Of a DNA stretch of 40,096 bases, positions 1-7,220 are shown piece after piece. A model generated the notes under the pieces. It did no database searches. It saw nothing but the letters and a program-made list of their open reading frames with translations, and was not told the origin of the DNA. Position 1 is the first letter of the stretch; each line of letters begins with the position of its first letter. Made by a program: the position numbers and the translations under genes. The stretch is from Chloroflexota bacterium (GTDB lineage: Bacteria; Chloroflexota; Anaerolineae; Promineifilales; Promineifilaceae), in the NCBI GenBank assembly GCA_003696605.1, contig RFGV01000003.1, forward strand, positions 1-40,096. The letters are read 5' to 3'.

Positions 1-541
1 CCTCTACCCACCCCTTCACAGAGCCATCAGGCGTTTCCACCAGCCACCACTCCTCATTTTCCTGAGGATTCCGAATAACAACCGGCGACACATTCACCAA
101 CCGCGCCACCTCAGAGCCGCCAGGCGTATCAAAAAGGGGCACATCACTGCCCGCCCCGTCAAAAACATACCCCTGCCGCCGCACAAAAAAATCAGACACC
201 CACCCTTTAATCCCCTCAACGGTACGCACGCGATAAAAGCGATGCAGATTTTGCGGACCACTATGCCGAATCTCATACACCGCTGCCGGTACACCCGTAT
301 GGACTTTAGCCACCACAGGCGCATCTTTCTGGGGAGCTGCCAGCAAATCCACTTCATGGGCGAACATCAACCCATGCTCATCCACACCACTCAACAAAAC
401 CCATATTGGCCCATCCTGCTCTGCCAGTTGCAAGCCAACACTATTCGTTACTGGCACAACAGTAGGCGGCAAAGAATCGGCCGTTTTGCACCCTGCCATC
501 AAAAACAACAGCAAACACCCAAACAACCATTTCCACACCAT
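1..541 (-). CDS. Truncated lipoprotein with SH3-like repeats (5' part only)
   Basis: Reading from an ATG at 541 leftward gives an open frame of 180 codons that runs off the window edge. The first residues are a hydrophobic signal ending in the lipobox LMAGC, with Cys18 as the expected lipidation site, so the product is probably a membrane-anchored lipoprotein. The rest contains two stretches of the kind seen in bacterial SH3 domains: one around residues 75-115 ending in GWVSDFF, and one around 135-180 ending in a second KGWVE. This suggests cell-wall or ligand binding, but the similarity is by eye only. A GGGAG box lies about 9 bases before the ATG. The downstream part is outside the window, so total length and any catalytic domain are unknown. 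A plus-strand reading frame across the same bases is a shadow. Confidence 0.7.
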   Translation of the reverse strand, partial: MVWKWLFGCLLLFLMAGCKTADSLPPTVVPVTNSVGLQLAEQDGPIWVLLSGVDEHGLMFAHEVDLLAAPQKDAPVVAKVHTGVPAAVYEIRHSGPQNLHRFYRVRTVEGIKGWVSDFFVRRQGYVFDGAGSDVPLFDTPGGSEVARLVNVSPVVIRNPQENEEWWLVETPDGSVKGWVE

Positions 542-598
542 AAAACCACACTCCCAAAAACTCAATACAAATCAAATATTATCCCCTCACTCCCCAAA

Positions 599-639
599 AC
601 AAAAAAGGCGCAGGGCAAGCCAACAACCCACCCTGCGCC
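599..639 (-). terminator. Rho-independent terminator of the LTD/MBL gene
   Basis: A perfect 9-bp stem, GGCGCAGGG (607-615) with CCCTGCGCC (631-639), is followed on the minus strand by a run of T (the A-run at 601-606). It lies just after the stop codon of the minus-strand gene ending at 657 and before the lipoprotein start at 541. The two genes are therefore probably separate transcripts. Confidence 0.85.
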
Positions 640-656
640 AGCACACTCAACCAATA

Positions 657-2600
657 CTAGGGATTAGGCGCACCCTTTGTGGGCGAACCCGGTGACGAAG
701 CCCAGGCACCACCATCCGGAGTACGATACCACGACTTATTCTTGCTACTGCTGGTATAAGTAAAACTGTCCACCACAGTCGTGCCATCCGGCATCAACAA
801 CCGCACATCATCCCCACCATTATTAAAATAGCGGTTCGTGTCCATGGTGTAATACCCGCCTGCCGGAATAATCGTCCCTGCCGGAATTTGCTGCGGCGCC
901 CCGCCACCACCGGCAATGTCATCAATCCACGCCCCCGAAATATCAATGGCCTGCGGCGTCGGGTTATACAACTCAACCCACTCCGAATTGCCACTACTTG
1001 GATTCGGGAACAGTTCATTAATCACAATATCATCAATCCCATAAGTAGGTGGTGGCGATGACGGATCACTGGCCACATACGGCGTGCCATTTACCGTATA
1101 ATTCACGCCGTCCGTCGAACGCAAAATAATATCACCATCCACAATAACCGATGCCCCGTAATTTCGAGTGGTATCACATATATTTGTCAGATACACATCA
1201 CTGGTTGCCAGCAAGCGGTCTAGTACCACTTGTGCCGGATGCCCATACGTATTACTACCACAAGAGATGGCCGACACATCAGGATTCAGGGTGTCCACAT
1301 ATGCCTGACTGGTAGAATGACCGGAGCCATGATGATTCGCCCGCATCACATCCACCTGACCGAAACGTGGAGCCAGCACACTTTCCACATCATTGTAAGT
1401 GTACCCGAACTGACTGGTGTTGTATTCACCGTCAGAGTCACCCGCTGTGGCATAGTCAATCTGGCCAAAGCGAATCTTGAGACCAATGGAATAGTCATTT
1501 TCGCTGGGTGGTAACGGGTCGTTGGTATGATCACCCTGCAGAGGTGTAACGCCATCTGCCATGACCACGCCATCAGCATCTACCTGAACGATTTCAACCA
1601 CTGCCCCTGCGTCTGGTGGGTCAATTTGGGTGGTAGAGCCAAGTTGAGCCAATTCACGAATGGGATAAATGTTTGTGTTAGCCGGATTCGTTGCGTAACA
1701 AATCCAGTTACGGGCTGTACCGGATTGAGTACCGGCGTTATGCCACACAATTTCCAGATCGGGATCACACAGTCCGTCTGCTGCTCCCCCATTTGCGCCA
1801 TCTACCCACACCCCGGAATCACGATCTATGATTTTGTCGAAGGTGATTCCTTCTACCTCCATCAATGCCCAGAAGCCGCCGTAGCCGGCGTATCCGATGT
1901 GGTCCAGGTGCAGGTGGCTGAGTACACCTACGTTGATGTGGGAGCCACCGGTAATTGCCCGGATTTTTTGGGCAATATAAGCAGCACCTGCGCCTGTGTT
2001 CCAGGAGGATTCACGTACGTCTATGAGGATGGTGTAGCCGGAGGGGAAGATAATGAGTTGGCTGTCACCCTGTTCTACATCGAAAATGCGGATTTCGAAT
2101 GTGCCGGGAACCCAGGGTTCGTCTCCTGTACCGCCGTTGCTGGCTCCTTTGGTGGGGGAGTCGCTTTCGATGCCACTCCATGCGCCACCATCAGGGAAGC
2201 GATACCATGAGTATTCGGCGGTGGCGGAACTGTAACTGGTGCTGTCGAGCGCGTTTTGTGAGGGGTCCAGGAAGCGAACATCATCACCGCCGTTGTTAAG
2301 GAAGCTGGAGAACTCCATGACGTAATAGCCTTTGGCGGGGATGATGGTACCGGAGGGGATGACTTTGGGGGAGCCTCCTCCGTTGGCTATGTCGTCTATG
2401 TAGTGGCCGGATATGTCCAGGTCGGTGTTGGTGGTGTTGTAGAGTTCTACCCATTCGGTGATGCTGCTGTTGGCGACGTATTCATTGATGACGACGTCAC
2501 CGGGACCGGGTGGGTTGGCGGCGGCTGCCTGGGTGTAGGGGTAGGCGATGAATAGTAAAACGGTTAGCAGGATAAAGCGGAACAGTTTTTGGGAAATCAT
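657..2600 (-). CDS. Secreted LTD - metallo-beta-lactamase - LTD protein
   Basis: The 647-aa product begins with a signal peptide (hydrophobic residues about 7-20, then an Ala-rich cleavage region). It has three domains. A lamin-tail domain (LTD, about 35-150) starts VVINEYVANSS and has the WVELYN strand. A ComEC/Rec2-type metallo-beta-lactamase domain (about 165-510) carries HLHLDHIG at 229-236 and NHHGSGHS from 422. A second LTD (about 540-645) has the same WVELYN and PDGGAW signatures. MBL domains of this type bind two metals and usually hydrolyse phosphodiesters, so an extracellular nuclease-like role is plausible but inferred. The start at 2600 was chosen over a TTG further upstream because AAAGGAG precedes it and the signal peptide starts there. 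The gene sits alone, with its own promoter (2842-2869) and terminator. Confidence 0.85.
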   Translation of the reverse strand: MISQKLFRFILLTVLLFIAYPYTQAAAANPPGPGDVVINEYVANSSITEWVELYNTTNTDLDISGHYIDDIANGGGSPKVIPSGTIIPAKGYYVMEFSSFLNNGGDDVRFLDPSQNALDSTSYSSATAEYSWYRFPDGGAWSGIESDSPTKGASNGGTGDEPWVPGTFEIRIFDVEQGDSQLIIFPSGYTILIDVRESSWNTGAGAAYIAQKIRAITGGSHINVGVLSHLHLDHIGYAGYGGFWALMEVEGITFDKIIDRDSGVWVDGANGGAADGLCDPDLEIVWHNAGTQSGTARNWICYATNPANTNIYPIRELAQLGSTTQIDPPDAGAVVEIVQVDADGVVMADGVTPLQGDHTNDPLPPSENDYSIGLKIRFGQIDYATAGDSDGEYNTSQFGYTYNDVESVLAPRFGQVDVMRANHHGSGHSTSQAYVDTLNPDVSAISCGSNTYGHPAQVVLDRLLATSDVYLTNICDTTRNYGASVIVDGDIILRSTDGVNYTVNGTPYVASDPSSPPPTYGIDDIVINELFPNPSSGNSEWVELYNPTPQAIDISGAWIDDIAGGGGAPQQIPAGTIIPAGGYYTMDTNRYFNNGGDDVRLLMPDGTTVVDSFTYTSSSKNKSWYRTPDGGAWASSPGSPTKGAPNP

Positions 2601-3006
2601 GGCAACTCCTTTGTATTGAGATGGGATAATAAAAACGGCCATGATGGGTTGCATCATGGCCGATGGAGACAAGGAGAGGGGGGAAGGTTATTGATTGGTG
2701 GCGGGCGGAAAGGAAAACGGCCGTTTTCTCCGCACGCAACTTCTTTTTCCCAATTATTTGGTTTTCAGGGGGAACGACCGTACTGCCCATATGGCGTTCA
2801 TTCCTGTTCCTAAAAATGCCCAATTAAGCCCAATAAATGGCATTATAACGTACCATATTTTAATGACAAAGTAAATACACATTTTTTAGTTTGCCAGAGT
2901 GCGAGCACCTCTACAACCTTGATTTGAACAGGGCAATACCAAAGAGAAAAATGCTTCACTTATACGCTTTTACTTATTACAAAGCTGCCGTGCGGCATCC
3001 CTGTTT
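2601..3006. other. Gene-free stretch holding a long 5' leader and a palindrome copy
   Basis: No convincing gene lies in these 406 bases. They hold the probable leader (about 235 nt) of the minus-strand LTD/MBL gene, with a 14-base perfect palindrome AAAACGGCCGTTTT at 2714-2727 inside it and the promoter at 2842-2869. The remainder up to 3006 is AT-rich and shows nothing I recognise. Confidence 0.6.
2842..2869 (-). promoter_or_regulatory. Sigma70-like promoter for the LTD/MBL gene
   Basis: On the minus strand TTGTCA (2869-2864) and a perfect TATAAT (2847-2842) are separated by 16 bases. The predicted transcript would have a leader of about 235 nt before the ATG at 2600. Confidence 0.55.
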
Positions 3007-3249
3007 TTAATTTGTCATTCTTTTCTTCACCATTCTTCGGATAACCAATGTTACTCCCCCTAATGTACTAATACCTGCGCCTGCCCAGCGAATTTGGGAA
3101 GCAATCTGGGCATGAAAATTGTAGCGTGTCACCATTGCGGGCGTTGGATCTTGATAGGGGATGCCGGCAAACAATATGTCATACATAAAGCCGCAAAAGA
3201 TCACCAGGAATCCGAATATAAGCAACCCAACTGGCCAAAATTTTTTCAT
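3007..3249 (-). CDS. Small two-span membrane protein of unknown function
   Basis: This 80-aa protein has a hydrophobic helix at about residues 5-28 and a second at about 55-72, followed by a basic tail (RRMVKKR). The short loop between them reads GIPYQDPTP, a motif I have seen in small uncharacterised bacterial membrane proteins without known role. An AAGGAG box lies 9-11 bases before the ATG, which supports a real gene. It stands between the PBP gene and the LTD/MBL gene, all on the minus strand but with sizeable gaps, so an operon is uncertain. No function is assigned. Confidence 0.65.
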   Translation of the reverse strand: MKKFWPVGLLIFGFLVIFCGFMYDILFAGIPYQDPTPAMVTRYNFHAQIASQIRWAGAGISTLGGVTLVIRRMVKKRMTN

Positions 3250-3525
3250 CTGTCAGTGCTCCTTCAAGGGGGAATGCCTGGTTAGCCTGTTAACCTCAAA
3301 ATGTGCTTTGCCAGGCTGATAAATAAGTTTCATGTTTCAGGGACAGTATAGTCTAACGCCAAAAAGCGAGTCAATAGTCATTCGAATTGGCACAGTAAAG
3401 TCGAAACCACTGTTGTGGCGCGCAAGAACTTAACGTCCAGTCGGGTCTCCGGCTGGCACATAACGATTAGGTGTCAAAAACGGCCGTGTGACAACAGACA
3501 GTATTGGTGAATACCAACTGGCGGT

Positions 3526-5763
3526 TTATGGTTCTGACCAGGGGAAAGGAGTCAACGGCCGTATCCCATAATATAGCTCCACAATTCGCCGAAAGACAGG
3601 TGCTGCTACTTCCGATCCCTCGCCTGCATTTTCGACCATGACGACGATAGCTATCTGAGGGGATTCGATGAACTCGCCTGTTGGTGTGGTGTAGGGAGCT
3701 GCCGGTGCATAACCTGCAAACCAGGCATGGGGATCATTGGGTGGTGCTTCCGCTGTGCCTGTTTTGCCTGCTACCGGCACTGGCAAGCCAACGAACTGAT
3801 AAGCGGCCGTGCCGGCCTCACTATTGGCTACATTCCACAAGCTTTGTCGGATAACTTGCAAATGCTCTGGCGAAAGCGGCAATTCACCCCGAACTTGAGG
3901 TGGCCAGGGCTCTTCTGGAATACCAGCACCTGCGCCAATGCGATCAACCAGGGTGGGGACGTACAAAGTGCCCCCGTTAGCAATAGCAGCCATCATGTCC
4001 ACTACCTGAAGTGGGGTCACTTGCACAAAGCCCTGGCCAATAGCCATATTCACCGCATCACCACGCGCCCAGCCTTCACCAATATTGGCCAGTTTCCACT
4101 CCGGGTTGGGTATGAGACCAGTGGCTTCTTCTATTTGAATGCCGGTGGGTTGCCCGAAGCCAAATTGAACGGCCGTATTTGGCAAAAGCTCCGGATCTGC
4201 TTCATCCAGGTTATAGCCAACATCATAAAAACAGGTGTTACAAGAAACAACCAACGCCTGTTTGAGGCTAATCGTTCCATGCCCCCCTTCCAACCAGTCA
4301 TATTTGACAAAAGCATCACCAAGCCGATTCCATGAGCCGGTACTGGTATAGAGTGTGTCTGGCGTGTAGAGGCCACTGTTGAGTGCTGCCGACATAGTGA
4401 CAATTTTGAAGACGGAGCCAGCCGGATATGCGCCTTGAGTGGCCCGATTGAGTAACGGCCGTCCTGGATCATTGAACAAACGCCCCAACTCCACCGCCGA
4501 ATCCAACCGCAATGTATCAAATACCACCGGGTTGAATGTGGGATAGCTGGCCATTGCCAAAATTGCCCCATTGTTGACATCCATCACAATAATAGAGCCA
4601 GCCTGGGCGACCGGATGGGAGTTGATCGCTTCTGCCAGTGCTTCTTCTACAGCGGCCTGAAAGTCCCGATCGATAGTAGTGTAAATACTACGGGCTTGTT
4701 TGGGTTCTCTTTCAGCCACAGTGGTAATATATTCCCCACTGGGACCAACAACAGTCAATGTACCGCCTCGCTCCCCATTAAGATAATCCTCTCCCCACTT
4801 TTCCAAACCTGCCCGACCAACCATCTCGTCTCCACGATACCCCTGAGCTTTATAAGCCTCCACTTCTTCGGCGGGGATGAAGCCGGTATAACCAACGATA
4901 TGTGCGGCAATCCCTTCTGGTGTGTAGAGGCGGCTGAGGCGAGTTTGCGGAATGGCCAGACCGTTGCCGATGTAAGGCTGGATGGCAGTGGCGTATTGTT
5001 GCATGGTTTCTTCCAGTACCTCGCCGATGGGTACGTACCAGTCAGGTAAGGCAGAAGCATAGAGGGCCTGGATTTCTTCGGGCGGGCGATTGAGCATCTG
5101 GCTGAGCAGACTGAGTAGCCCTTCTTCATCCTGGATTTTGCCGGGGATAACGCCCAGGGTGATGATGTTGCCCTGAAAAGCAAGGGCACGGCCGTTTTTG
5201 TCGTAGATGTTCGCACGAGCAGGGATGCGGTAGTCGAGATATAGCCGATAACCAGGAGCCAGTTCGGGCAGAATGAGGCTTTCGTCCCATACAATTCCCC
5301 AGCGATTTTGCTCAAACTTGAGAGGGACGGTAAAGTCGCGGGTGATAGGGCCAACAACGGCCGTTTCCCACGTGACACGCACCCCAAATTCGGCCGTTTC
5401 CCCCTGCTGAATCAACGATAACGGCTGTGTATGCACACGCTGCACCGTAGCCGTTGCCATCGTTTCCTCATACAACCTCACAAACGAATCAACATCTACC
5501 AACGCCTGACTACTGGGTGCCAACAAACTGTACATTCCCAGGTAATCCATCCCTTCCCATGCCCGATAAAAGGCGCGGGCAATCCCCCCCGCATCCTCTT
5601 TTACCGGCGGTTCAGTCGGATGAGGTGTATTGGTTGGCAACGGTGTCAGCGTAACAATCTCCGCGCTATCCTGTGGCTGAGGCACAACAATGTTGTCTGT
5701 GCTACAGGCAACCATCAACACTGTTAGCAAAATAATAAGCAAGAAAAACCGATTTGTATTCAT
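3526..5763 (-). CDS. Penicillin-binding protein, MecA/PBP2 type (lipoprotein)
   Basis: The 745-aa product is a class B peptidoglycan transpeptidase. It starts with a signal ending LMVAC (lipidated Cys20), then an NTF2-like MecA N-terminal domain (about 55-170), a PBP dimerisation domain (about 175-350) and the transpeptidase domain (about 375-740). All three catalytic motifs are visible: S450-V-F-K453, S507-C-N509 and K667-T-G669. The enzyme cross-links cell-wall peptides outside the membrane and would bind beta-lactams; the MecA-like N domain alone does not imply resistance. Replacing the usual N-terminal membrane helix with a lipobox is a known variation in some lineages. The gene appears monocistronic, and a promoter is predicted just upstream (5802-5830). 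Plus-strand GC skew within it switches near the palindromes at 5358-5396. Confidence 0.93.
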   Translation of the reverse strand: MNTNRFFLLIILLTVLMVACSTDNIVVPQPQDSAEIVTLTPLPTNTPHPTEPPVKEDAGGIARAFYRAWEGMDYLGMYSLLAPSSQALVDVDSFVRLYEETMATATVQRVHTQPLSLIQQGETAEFGVRVTWETAVVGPITRDFTVPLKFEQNRWGIVWDESLILPELAPGYRLYLDYRIPARANIYDKNGRALAFQGNIITLGVIPGKIQDEEGLLSLLSQMLNRPPEEIQALYASALPDWYVPIGEVLEETMQQYATAIQPYIGNGLAIPQTRLSRLYTPEGIAAHIVGYTGFIPAEEVEAYKAQGYRGDEMVGRAGLEKWGEDYLNGERGGTLTVVGPSGEYITTVAEREPKQARSIYTTIDRDFQAAVEEALAEAINSHPVAQAGSIIVMDVNNGAILAMASYPTFNPVVFDTLRLDSAVELGRLFNDPGRPLLNRATQGAYPAGSVFKIVTMSAALNSGLYTPDTLYTSTGSWNRLGDAFVKYDWLEGGHGTISLKQALVVSCNTCFYDVGYNLDEADPELLPNTAVQFGFGQPTGIQIEEATGLIPNPEWKLANIGEGWARGDAVNMAIGQGFVQVTPLQVVDMMAAIANGGTLYVPTLVDRIGAGAGIPEEPWPPQVRGELPLSPEHLQVIRQSLWNVANSEAGTAAYQFVGLPVPVAGKTGTAEAPPNDPHAWFAGYAPAAPYTTPTGEFIESPQIAIVVMVENAGEGSEVAAPVFRRIVELYYGIRPLTPFPWSEP

Positions 5764-5801
5764 AACTCTCTCTGAATAAACAAACGAATGTCGAAGCTGA
5801 T

Positions 5802-5830
5802 ATTCTTGGAGAGATTGGGCAAAAAGTCAA
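5802..5830 (-). promoter_or_regulatory. Possible promoter of the PBP gene
   Basis: On the minus strand TTGACT (5830-5825) is followed after 17 bases by AAGAAT (5807-5802), a 4/6 match to the -10 consensus. It would give a leader of about 30 nt. Confidence 0.45.
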
Positions 5831-5905
5831 GCAGTTGGTCATATTTTTACCCATTTTCTTAACATGCTGCCGCCAGTTATTTATCAAGGTATGACCGATA
5901 ACCTG

Positions 5906-5935
5906 TTACAGGTTTGTCCTAAAAACCGGTAAAAT
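5906..5935 (+). promoter_or_regulatory. Possible promoter of the thiolase gene
   Basis: TTACAG (5906-5911) and TAAAAT (5930-5935) are 18 bases apart, about 44 bases before the thiolase start. Similar -35/-10 pairs occur upstream of pyruvate kinase and the slipin gene. Confidence 0.4.
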
Positions 5936-5978
5936 AGTGAAGTAACTCACGAATCTCACTGAATACCAGGAGCGTAAA

Positions 5979-7220
5979 ATGAGCACAAACGAAAAAGGAC
6001 AGGAAGTAGTCATTGTCGGCGCGGCACGTACACCCGTCGGCAAACTTATGGGAGGGCTGGAGAAACTGTCAGCCCCACAGTTGGGAGCGATTGCTATCAA
6101 AGCAGCCGTAGAACGGGCCGGGATTGATCCCGATACAGTTTATGAAGTAATCATGGGGAATGTGGTGACAGCGGGAGAAGGACAGGCCCCTGCCCGACAA
6201 GCTGCATTGGGGGCGGGCTTGCCGAATACAGTTGGCGCATCCTCTGTAAATAAGGTATGTGGTTCCGGCCTGAAAGCAGTGATGATGGCTGCCAATGGCA
6301 TTGTGGCTGGTGAGGCAGATGTGTTTGTGGCTGGCGGTATGGAAAGTATGTCCAATGCACCCTATCTGGTGCCACGCGCCCGCCAGGGGTTGCGCTACGG
6401 TCATGCCCAGTTGCAGGATTCGCTGCTACATGATGGGTTGTGGTGTGCGTTTCAGGATTGGGCAATGGGGAATGCGGCAGAATTTATTGCCCGGCAGTTT
6501 GAGGTAACACGGGCGGAGATGGATGAGTTTGCATTGCAGAGTCATCAGCGGGCAGCAGAGGCCACAGCAAACGGCCGTTTTCAGGCCGAAATCACCCCCG
6601 TAGAAATCAAAACCCGCAAGGGCACTCAAACCATTACCATTGACGAACCAATTCGCGCCAACTTCCACAACGGCAGCTACGAACTAACCACCAGCCTGGA
6701 GCTACTGGCCAAATTACCCCCCGCCTTCGAAAAAGACGGCCAGGTAACAGCCGGAAATGCACCTGGCCTTAACGACGGTGCGGCGGCTCTCGTCCTCACC
6801 AGTCGTACCGAAGCCGAACGACAAGGCCTCAAGCCAATGGCGCGTATAGTGGGCTACACCCTGGCAGCGGTAGAACCGGCCTGGCTCTTTGCAGCCCCCG
6901 CTCGTGCCATCCCCCGCCTGCTACAAAAAGTAGGCTGGCAACTGGAAGATGTCGATCTCATTGAACTTAATGAAGCATTTGCCGCACAGGCTCTGGCCAA
7001 TGGTGTGGAATTAACTCGAAACGGTTATAAATGGGATTGGGATAAAGTGAACATACATGGTGGCGCCATTGCTTTGGGGCATCCTATTGGGGCAAGTGGT
7101 GCGCGTATTTTGGTTACGTTGCTCTATGCCCTGCAACAGCGTGGCCTCAAACGAGGCATTGCTGCGTTGTGCCTGGGCGGTGGCGAGGCTGTGGCGCTGG
7201 CCGTAGAGATGGAAGAATAA
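5979..7220 (+). CDS. Acetyl-CoA acetyltransferase (thiolase)
   Basis: The 413-aa protein has the full thiolase layout: the N-terminal start EVVIVGAARTPVGK, the nucleophile Cys94 in NKVCGSGLKAV, NEAFAAQAL, His368 in GHPIGASGAR and the second catalytic cysteine Cys398 in CLGGGEAVAL. It condenses two acetyl-CoA or cleaves 3-ketoacyl-CoA; the closeness to the acetyl-CoA C-acetyltransferase type is by eye, and substrate range cannot be read from sequence. It is cytoplasmic and stands alone, with a terminator at 7251-7294. Together with the acyl-CoA mutase at 15196 it suggests fatty-acid or branched-chain CoA metabolism. An exact AACGGCCGTT at 6570-6579 encodes Asn-Gly-Arg, and codon choice shifts from G-ending to C-ending after it. 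Confidence 0.95.
   Translation: MSTNEKGQEVVIVGAARTPVGKLMGGLEKLSAPQLGAIAIKAAVERAGIDPDTVYEVIMGNVVTAGEGQAPARQAALGAGLPNTVGASSVNKVCGSGLKAVMMAANGIVAGEADVFVAGGMESMSNAPYLVPRARQGLRYGHAQLQDSLLHDGLWCAFQDWAMGNAAEFIARQFEVTRAEMDEFALQSHQRAAEATANGRFQAEITPVEIKTRKGTQTITIDEPIRANFHNGSYELTTSLELLAKLPPAFEKDGQVTAGNAPGLNDGAAALVLTSRTEAERQGLKPMARIVGYTLAAVEPAWLFAAPARAIPRLLQKVGWQLEDVDLIELNEAFAAQALANGVELTRNGYKWDWDKVNIHGGAIALGHPIGASGARILVTLLYALQQRGLKRGIAALCLGGGEAVALAVEMEE

Follow-up and report, generated by a model that had tools for sequence, protein, structure and literature searches.

We analyzed a window of 40,096 nucleotides (contig RFGV01000003.1, assembly GCA_003696605.1) from a Chloroflexota bacterium of the family Promineifilaceae, which carries an open reading frame (ORF) with lamin-tail domains (LTD), a gene for a penicillin-binding protein (PBP) and a thiolase gene, and which contains 40 exact copies of the eight-letter palindrome ACGGCCGT. 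The base composition of the plus strand changes at these copies: G minus C is greater to the left than to the right of the motif in 38 of the 40, and the mean flip has a z of 10.7 against 2000 rotations of the motif positions, none of which comes near the observed value. Averaged over the exact copies, GC skew stands at about +0.25 on the left and about -0.05 on the right, with the jump taking place within tens of bases and T-A skew nearly unchanged across the motif. An extra short spike, no more than ~25 bp from the motif, reflects an extended G-rich flank consensus.

The features at the start of the window are as follows, with G minus C given for 140-base flanks.

1..2716, skew ramp without an exact motif (interval of at least 2.7 kb), in the minus-strand LTD gene, in six steps
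477..484, degenerate TCGGCCGT, one base off; no flip, C-rich on both sides (left -22, right -43)
657..2672, minus strand, ORF with LTD (PF00932, E 4.4e-34)
2717..2724, exact ACGGCCGT at the right end (plus coordinates) of the LTD gene ramp (left +32, right -10)
3480..3487, exact ACGGCCGT between the LTD and PBP genes (left +2, right -5)
3526..5763, minus strand, PBP with transpeptidase, dimer and MecA_N domains (PF00905, E 1.2e-58; PF03717; PF05223)
3555..3562, exact ACGGCCGT in the PBP gene (left +9, right +3)
4169..4176, exact ACGGCCGT in the PBP gene (left -12, right -19)
4455..4462, exact ACGGCCGT in the PBP gene (left +11, right -16)
5188..5195, exact ACGGCCGT in the PBP gene (left +14, right +13)
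5357..5364, exact ACGGCCGT in the PBP gene, where the flip was first described (left +12, right -29)
5365..6570, ramp from one exact motif to the next, with skew going from -0.38 to +0.24, spanning a minus-strand into a plus-strand gene
5390..5397, degenerate TCGGCCGT, one base off by sequence, adjoining the exact copy at 5357
6571..6578, exact ACGGCCGT in the thiolase gene, plus strand (left +30, right -32)

A first-pass annotation of this part of the window had reported that the plus strand turns from G-rich to C-rich at palindromes in minus-strand genes as well. Our recount returns its figures for the PBP gene identically (G84 C52 at 4921-5160, C42 G19 at 5461-5580) and those for the LTD gene with one base of difference in each segment (C25 G12 instead of C26 at 901-960, G44 C22 instead of G45 at 2341-2460). 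The first of the two palindromes it placed at 5358 and 5391 is an exact copy, beginning at 5357, whereas the second, at 5390, is a one-off TCGGCCGT. It had also seen no flip at the degenerate core at 478 and limited the rule to better copies, and both points hold. In the 4.9 Mb genome of the window (G000; other family members are coded G001 to G023, and most genomes compared are metagenome-assembled genomes, MAGs), the flip is 0.071±0.005 at exact vs. 0.029±0.006 at one-off copies, and outside this weak effect in G000 one-off motifs are inactive, with flips of about zero in three other genera.

The flip at the palindrome stands, but not as a flip of fixed length; it is part of a sawtooth that runs between successive motifs, is family-wide and uses a palindrome that depends on the genus. 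The skew climbs from negative past one motif to positive ahead of the next and resets at each copy, such as in the LTD interval, where its six steps are -0.36, -0.32, -0.16, -0.05, +0.12 and +0.36. For the analyses of intervals and site classes, we used 157 to 312 kb from each of four genomes, with genes taken as longest ORFs, and found a steady rise in almost all interval classes between 100 bp and 6 kb. The skew beside the motif in G000 was 0.215, 0.297 and 0.615 for intervals of 320-640, 640-1280 and 1280-2560 bp, and in G001 the end amplitude likewise grew with interval length (0.116, 0.212, 0.293). A model with the two flanking motifs beats an additive model of all motifs in all four genomes (log-likelihood 626 vs. 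540, 554 vs. 501, 266 vs. 240 and 304 vs. 287): neighboring motifs insulate. Note additionally that sites inside one interval are not independent, so that the standard errors given here are too small; rotation nulls, which account for this non-independence, place the motif-anchored skew at z of 14 to 26.

Within single contigs (up to 204 kb), the left-hand and right-hand motif distances enter with coefficients similar in size and opposite in sign, which indicates that both sides act, unlike in one-sided replication priming. If Okazaki fragments were primed at the motif and DNA far from the primer stayed single-stranded for longer, a linear ramp bounded by neighboring motifs would indeed be expected, but within a given replichore it should depend on one distance and not on the other. 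Every contig tested shows about equal dependence on both, and this explanation is largely refuted and in our judgment highly improbable.

The first-pass annotation was right that minus-strand genes show the same pattern and that the skew goes with the palindrome rather than with gene direction or ordinary codon bias, as fourfold-degenerate sites, intergenic DNA and orthologues all bear out. Its inference from gene-strand independence alone does not carry, because the order "G-rich, palindrome, C-rich" is unchanged by reverse complementation and therefore looks alike in both gene directions, as would a motif-anchored transcriptional process. When sites are separated by gene strand, the fourfold coefficient in G000 is 2.99±0.11 in plus-strand and 2.72±0.19 in minus-strand genes (0.90 and 0.99 in G001, 0.69 and 0.63 in G021, 0.75 and 0.66 in G007), and the opposite profile did not appear in minus-strand genes. 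The effect is also present in intergenic DNA.

What sets the skew apart from its gene context is an orthologue test on 32 between-genera pairs, made at fourfold codons where the two orthologues agree in amino acid. For such a codon, the side on which its own genome's motif lies predicts G or C (logit 0.451±0.038), while the motif of the relative has no predictive value (-0.051±0.038). The skew is thus anchored by the motif and moves with it, which excludes the position of the gene, the protein content and composition borders that were there before. A cause in transcription or codon usage, or a motif that came to lie at composition borders already in place, has in its favor the strand-dependent baseline that genes contribute of their own, but the fourfold coefficients are equal in the two gene strands, the effect extends beyond genes, and where orthologues have the motif in another place, the same codons show the skew of the motif in their own genome. 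We consider this class of explanation refuted and leave it only the slightest chance. The motif itself is strongly maintained: across 55.6 kb aligned between G001 and G022, which are 7% divergent, 105 of 107 motifs are identical (98%), vs. 60% for 8-mers matched in composition (P ~6e-21). Motifs found in just one of these two genomes number 9, too few to give the direction of change.

The asymmetry lies mainly at silent sites. In three of the four genomes, its strength falls from fourfold sites through other third positions, noncoding DNA and codon position 1 to codon position 2, with the noncoding effect at ~0.15 to 0.4 of the fourfold effect and hardly any effect at position 2. Fourfold contrasts in G000 are 2.92 for G v C, 1.39 for T v C, 1.46 for A v C, 1.58 for G v A, 1.56 for G v T and -0.02 for T v A; silent sites gain G and lose C while A and T stay roughly neutral, and near motifs there is a slight rise in G+C content. 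Deamination of cytosine in single-stranded DNA is therefore a poor fit, as C loss alone would lower G+C near motifs, and an additive preference of G > A, T > C, as from fixation or repair bias, fits better. This bears on a model in which double-strand breaks at the motif are followed by 5' to 3' resection and by deamination on the exposed 3' single strand. The model predicts the polarity correctly, since the strand with its 3' end at the motif is C poor, and T is slightly up over A in two of the four genomes. It does not account for the gain of G against both A and T or for the lack of T replacing C, and no reset at the next motif would be expected without a roadblock, so we hold it to be very unlikely.

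The main rival is selection for polarity, under which G-rich strands leading toward the motif guide a translocase or helicase-nuclease and the palindrome serves as focus or stop. Chi and KOPS/AIMS are G-rich polar oligomers that point translocating machines, and here the G-rich strand points at the motif from both sides, GGTG and GGTGG are the most asymmetric 4- and 5-mers, and the fourfold pattern with its unlowered G+C is what an additive fixation bias would give. Yet no k-mer dominates, net base composition accounts for most of the 5-mer asymmetry, all dinucleotide contexts carry it, a ramp scaled to the distance of the next motif is not something that selection would obviously target, and codon positions 1 and 2 barely shift. 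We judge this rival unlikely, if worth keeping in view. A Chi-like oriented oligomer was rejected in favor of a diffuse compositional effect: Chi, KOPS and AIMS are specific non-palindromic oligomers oriented by replichore, whereas here overall composition is polar around thousands of palindromes.

Such numbers hold for the genome as a whole. ACGGCCGT occurs 5641 times in G000, compared with 201 occurrences of the same letters read backwards as a control, and its observed/expected ratio in 157 kb is ~105, making it a highly iterated palindrome, i.e., a short palindrome hugely over-represented genome-wide. It reaches ~3,000 to 13,000 copies in 14 of 24 genomes of the family, and stays below 300 copies per genome in those sampled from other families within the order and class. 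Of the named relatives found, the nearest is the Anaerolineales MAG HKST-UBA48 (63% identity in PBP), which has ACGGCCGT at 76x expectation with a flip of 0.029±0.011. Within the family, the palindrome that flips is a genome's own: ACGGCCGT in G000, G001, G010, G013, G018 and G021, TCGGCCGA in G007 (469 in 300 kb), TGCCGGCA in G011 (z 5.3), GCGGCCGC in G014 (z 6.1) and a degenerate CGGCCG in G017 (z 6.7). Other six-base palindromes give few or no flips (z ~-4 to +3 vs. 20 to 29 for the own motif). Neither an octamer of this kind nor a clear flip is seen in G009, G020 and G023, and G005 and G019 have abundant CGGCCG and no flip.

Our favored reading of these results, held tentatively and at somewhat short of even chances, is strand-specific DNA processing initiated at the motif. 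The palindrome would be the recognition site of a putative sequence-specific, probably dimeric factor that binds or nicks DNA and starts strand-specific processing. In its simplest form, this processing would be excision and resynthesis, or strand exchange, that proceeds in a single direction along each strand and ends at the next motif. Acting weakly over long times, such a process would on average favor G and disfavor C on the strand whose 5' to 3' direction leads into the motif, alike on both sides. We infer here a dedicated protein, initiation at the motif, and a repair or fixation bias behind the exchange of G for C. Taken together, this would mean that a site-reading process has slowly reshaped the whole genome around the motif copies. 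We are more confident of the broader picture, which we think rather probable: chromosomes split by thousands of lineage-specific palindromes, a bidirectional strand-specific system that makes the sawtooth, and a recognition sequence that switched between genera while the process was kept.

Several observations weigh against motif-initiated processing. The weaker effect in noncoding DNA is not what a purely mutational cause predicts, and the substitution rate between G001 and G022 is flat with distance from the motif, with no hotspot and no visible elevation. G005 (L241, L242, L044) carries CGGCCG once per ~256 bp, 11x expectation, without a flip, though at this dense spacing the palindrome may be either a relic or too closely packed. 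None of the enzyme families searched (C5 methylase, N4/N6 methylase, NotI nuclease, MutH) fits all motif genomes. C5 methylase (PF00145) is absent from G000, G001, G022, G010 and G018; N4/N6 methylase (PF01555), the other methylase family searched, gives only weak matches in G000; NotI-like nuclease (PF12183) is sporadic, being absent from G000, G001, G007 and G021 and present or marginal in G013, G014 and G015; and MutH (PF02976) was found in 0 of 26 genomes with a positive E. coli control. MutS and MutL of the endonuclease type are present whether or not a genome has the motif and do not separate motif genomes from others, and the MutL endonuclease site DQHAxxExxxxE is kept in nearly all genomes, motif or not, G015 being degenerate.

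The same survey bears on methyl-directed mismatch repair, in which the palindrome would be a nick site, as GATC is for MutH in the GATC/MutH/Dam system, and excision would run one way from the nearest site to the mismatch. A nearest nick site would give a linear, insulated, neighbor-bounded ramp proportional to the difference in flanking distances, as in G000; motif conservation would follow as well, and MutS and MutL are present. Against this stand the lack of MutH and of any consistent methylase, a MutL that keeps its endonuclease residues, and E. coli GATC, which shows no ramp (50 kb only). We rate this mechanism as quite unlikely. In the motif-rich genome G015, the MutL (L270) has lost the endonuclease residues (DQHAAHCRVLYE) and has an altered CPHGRP, both of which other family members keep.

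A role of the palindrome as a NotI/EagI-type restriction site is not supported either, the NotI-family nuclease being missing from G000, G001, G007 and G021. In three CGGCCG-full genomes, a NotI-like gene has an N6_N4 methylase gene no more than a few kb away (L226 in G014, L227 in G015, L228 in G013; adjoining in G013 and G015), and these pairs are apparent restriction-modification systems.

Motif abundance and skew can be separated in mobile DNA. Viral-class contigs in IMG/VR are as motif-rich as their hosts, with one ACGGCCGT per ~400 bp, and show next to no sawtooth when interval lengths are matched (half-range 0.001 to 0.035, compared with 0.07 to 0.16 in G001 and G021); L276, L288, L294, L333, L345 and others are of this kind. 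Their genes (ParA, anti-repressor, DnaC-like loader, FtsK-like, transglycosylase) suggest phages or plasmids, whose hosts we infer from the motif only, and these contigs may mimic the host motif.

Among known systems, the linear skew ramps with abrupt jumps of human replication N-domains are similar in shape, but their jump has the opposite sign, and the ramps described here are on a kb rather than Mb scale and are anchored on a short palindrome. In abundance, the closest likeness is to HIP1 (GCGATCGC) of cyanobacteria, likewise a palindrome of eight bases that occurs roughly once per kb, well in excess of expectation and mostly in genes, and that is replaced by other palindromes in exceptional strains (PMC4390886). 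On the Gloeocapsa replicon pGLO7428.01 (252 copies, one replicon), the HIP1 flip is 0.0067±0.0021 vs. 0.063 here, and the effect there is weak and short-range with T-A of opposite sign; skew is not mentioned in the main paper on these palindromes, and the orphan methylases linked to HIP1 have no consistent counterpart here in the C5 and N4/N6 families searched. We found no description of the sawtooth, the motif, skew at palindromes or palindromes in this bacterial group in the literature searched (open-access papers only). Strand skew in bacteria is usually put down to replication and transcription, whereas here a short palindrome sets skew on the scale of genes, symmetrically and independently of both. 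The sawtooth would then be a genome-readable trace of a previously unrecognized process of DNA repair, recombination or segregation, and the question of what highly iterated palindromes do becomes testable. Five palindromes in one family with one process amount to a natural experiment that offers a route to the responsible protein.

Two minor observations concern individual sequences. The first-pass annotation had given the LTD gene a metallo-beta-lactamase part; Pfam finds lamin-tail domains only and no metallo-beta-lactamase match, and the stretch HLHLDH (plus strand 1890-1925), which by eye resembles the metal site of these enzymes, suggests such a fold on sequence grounds. G022 contains dispersed repeats of ~90 bp (L081:8905-9032) and ~55 bp (L083:15689-15745) in many copies, the second matching on both strands.

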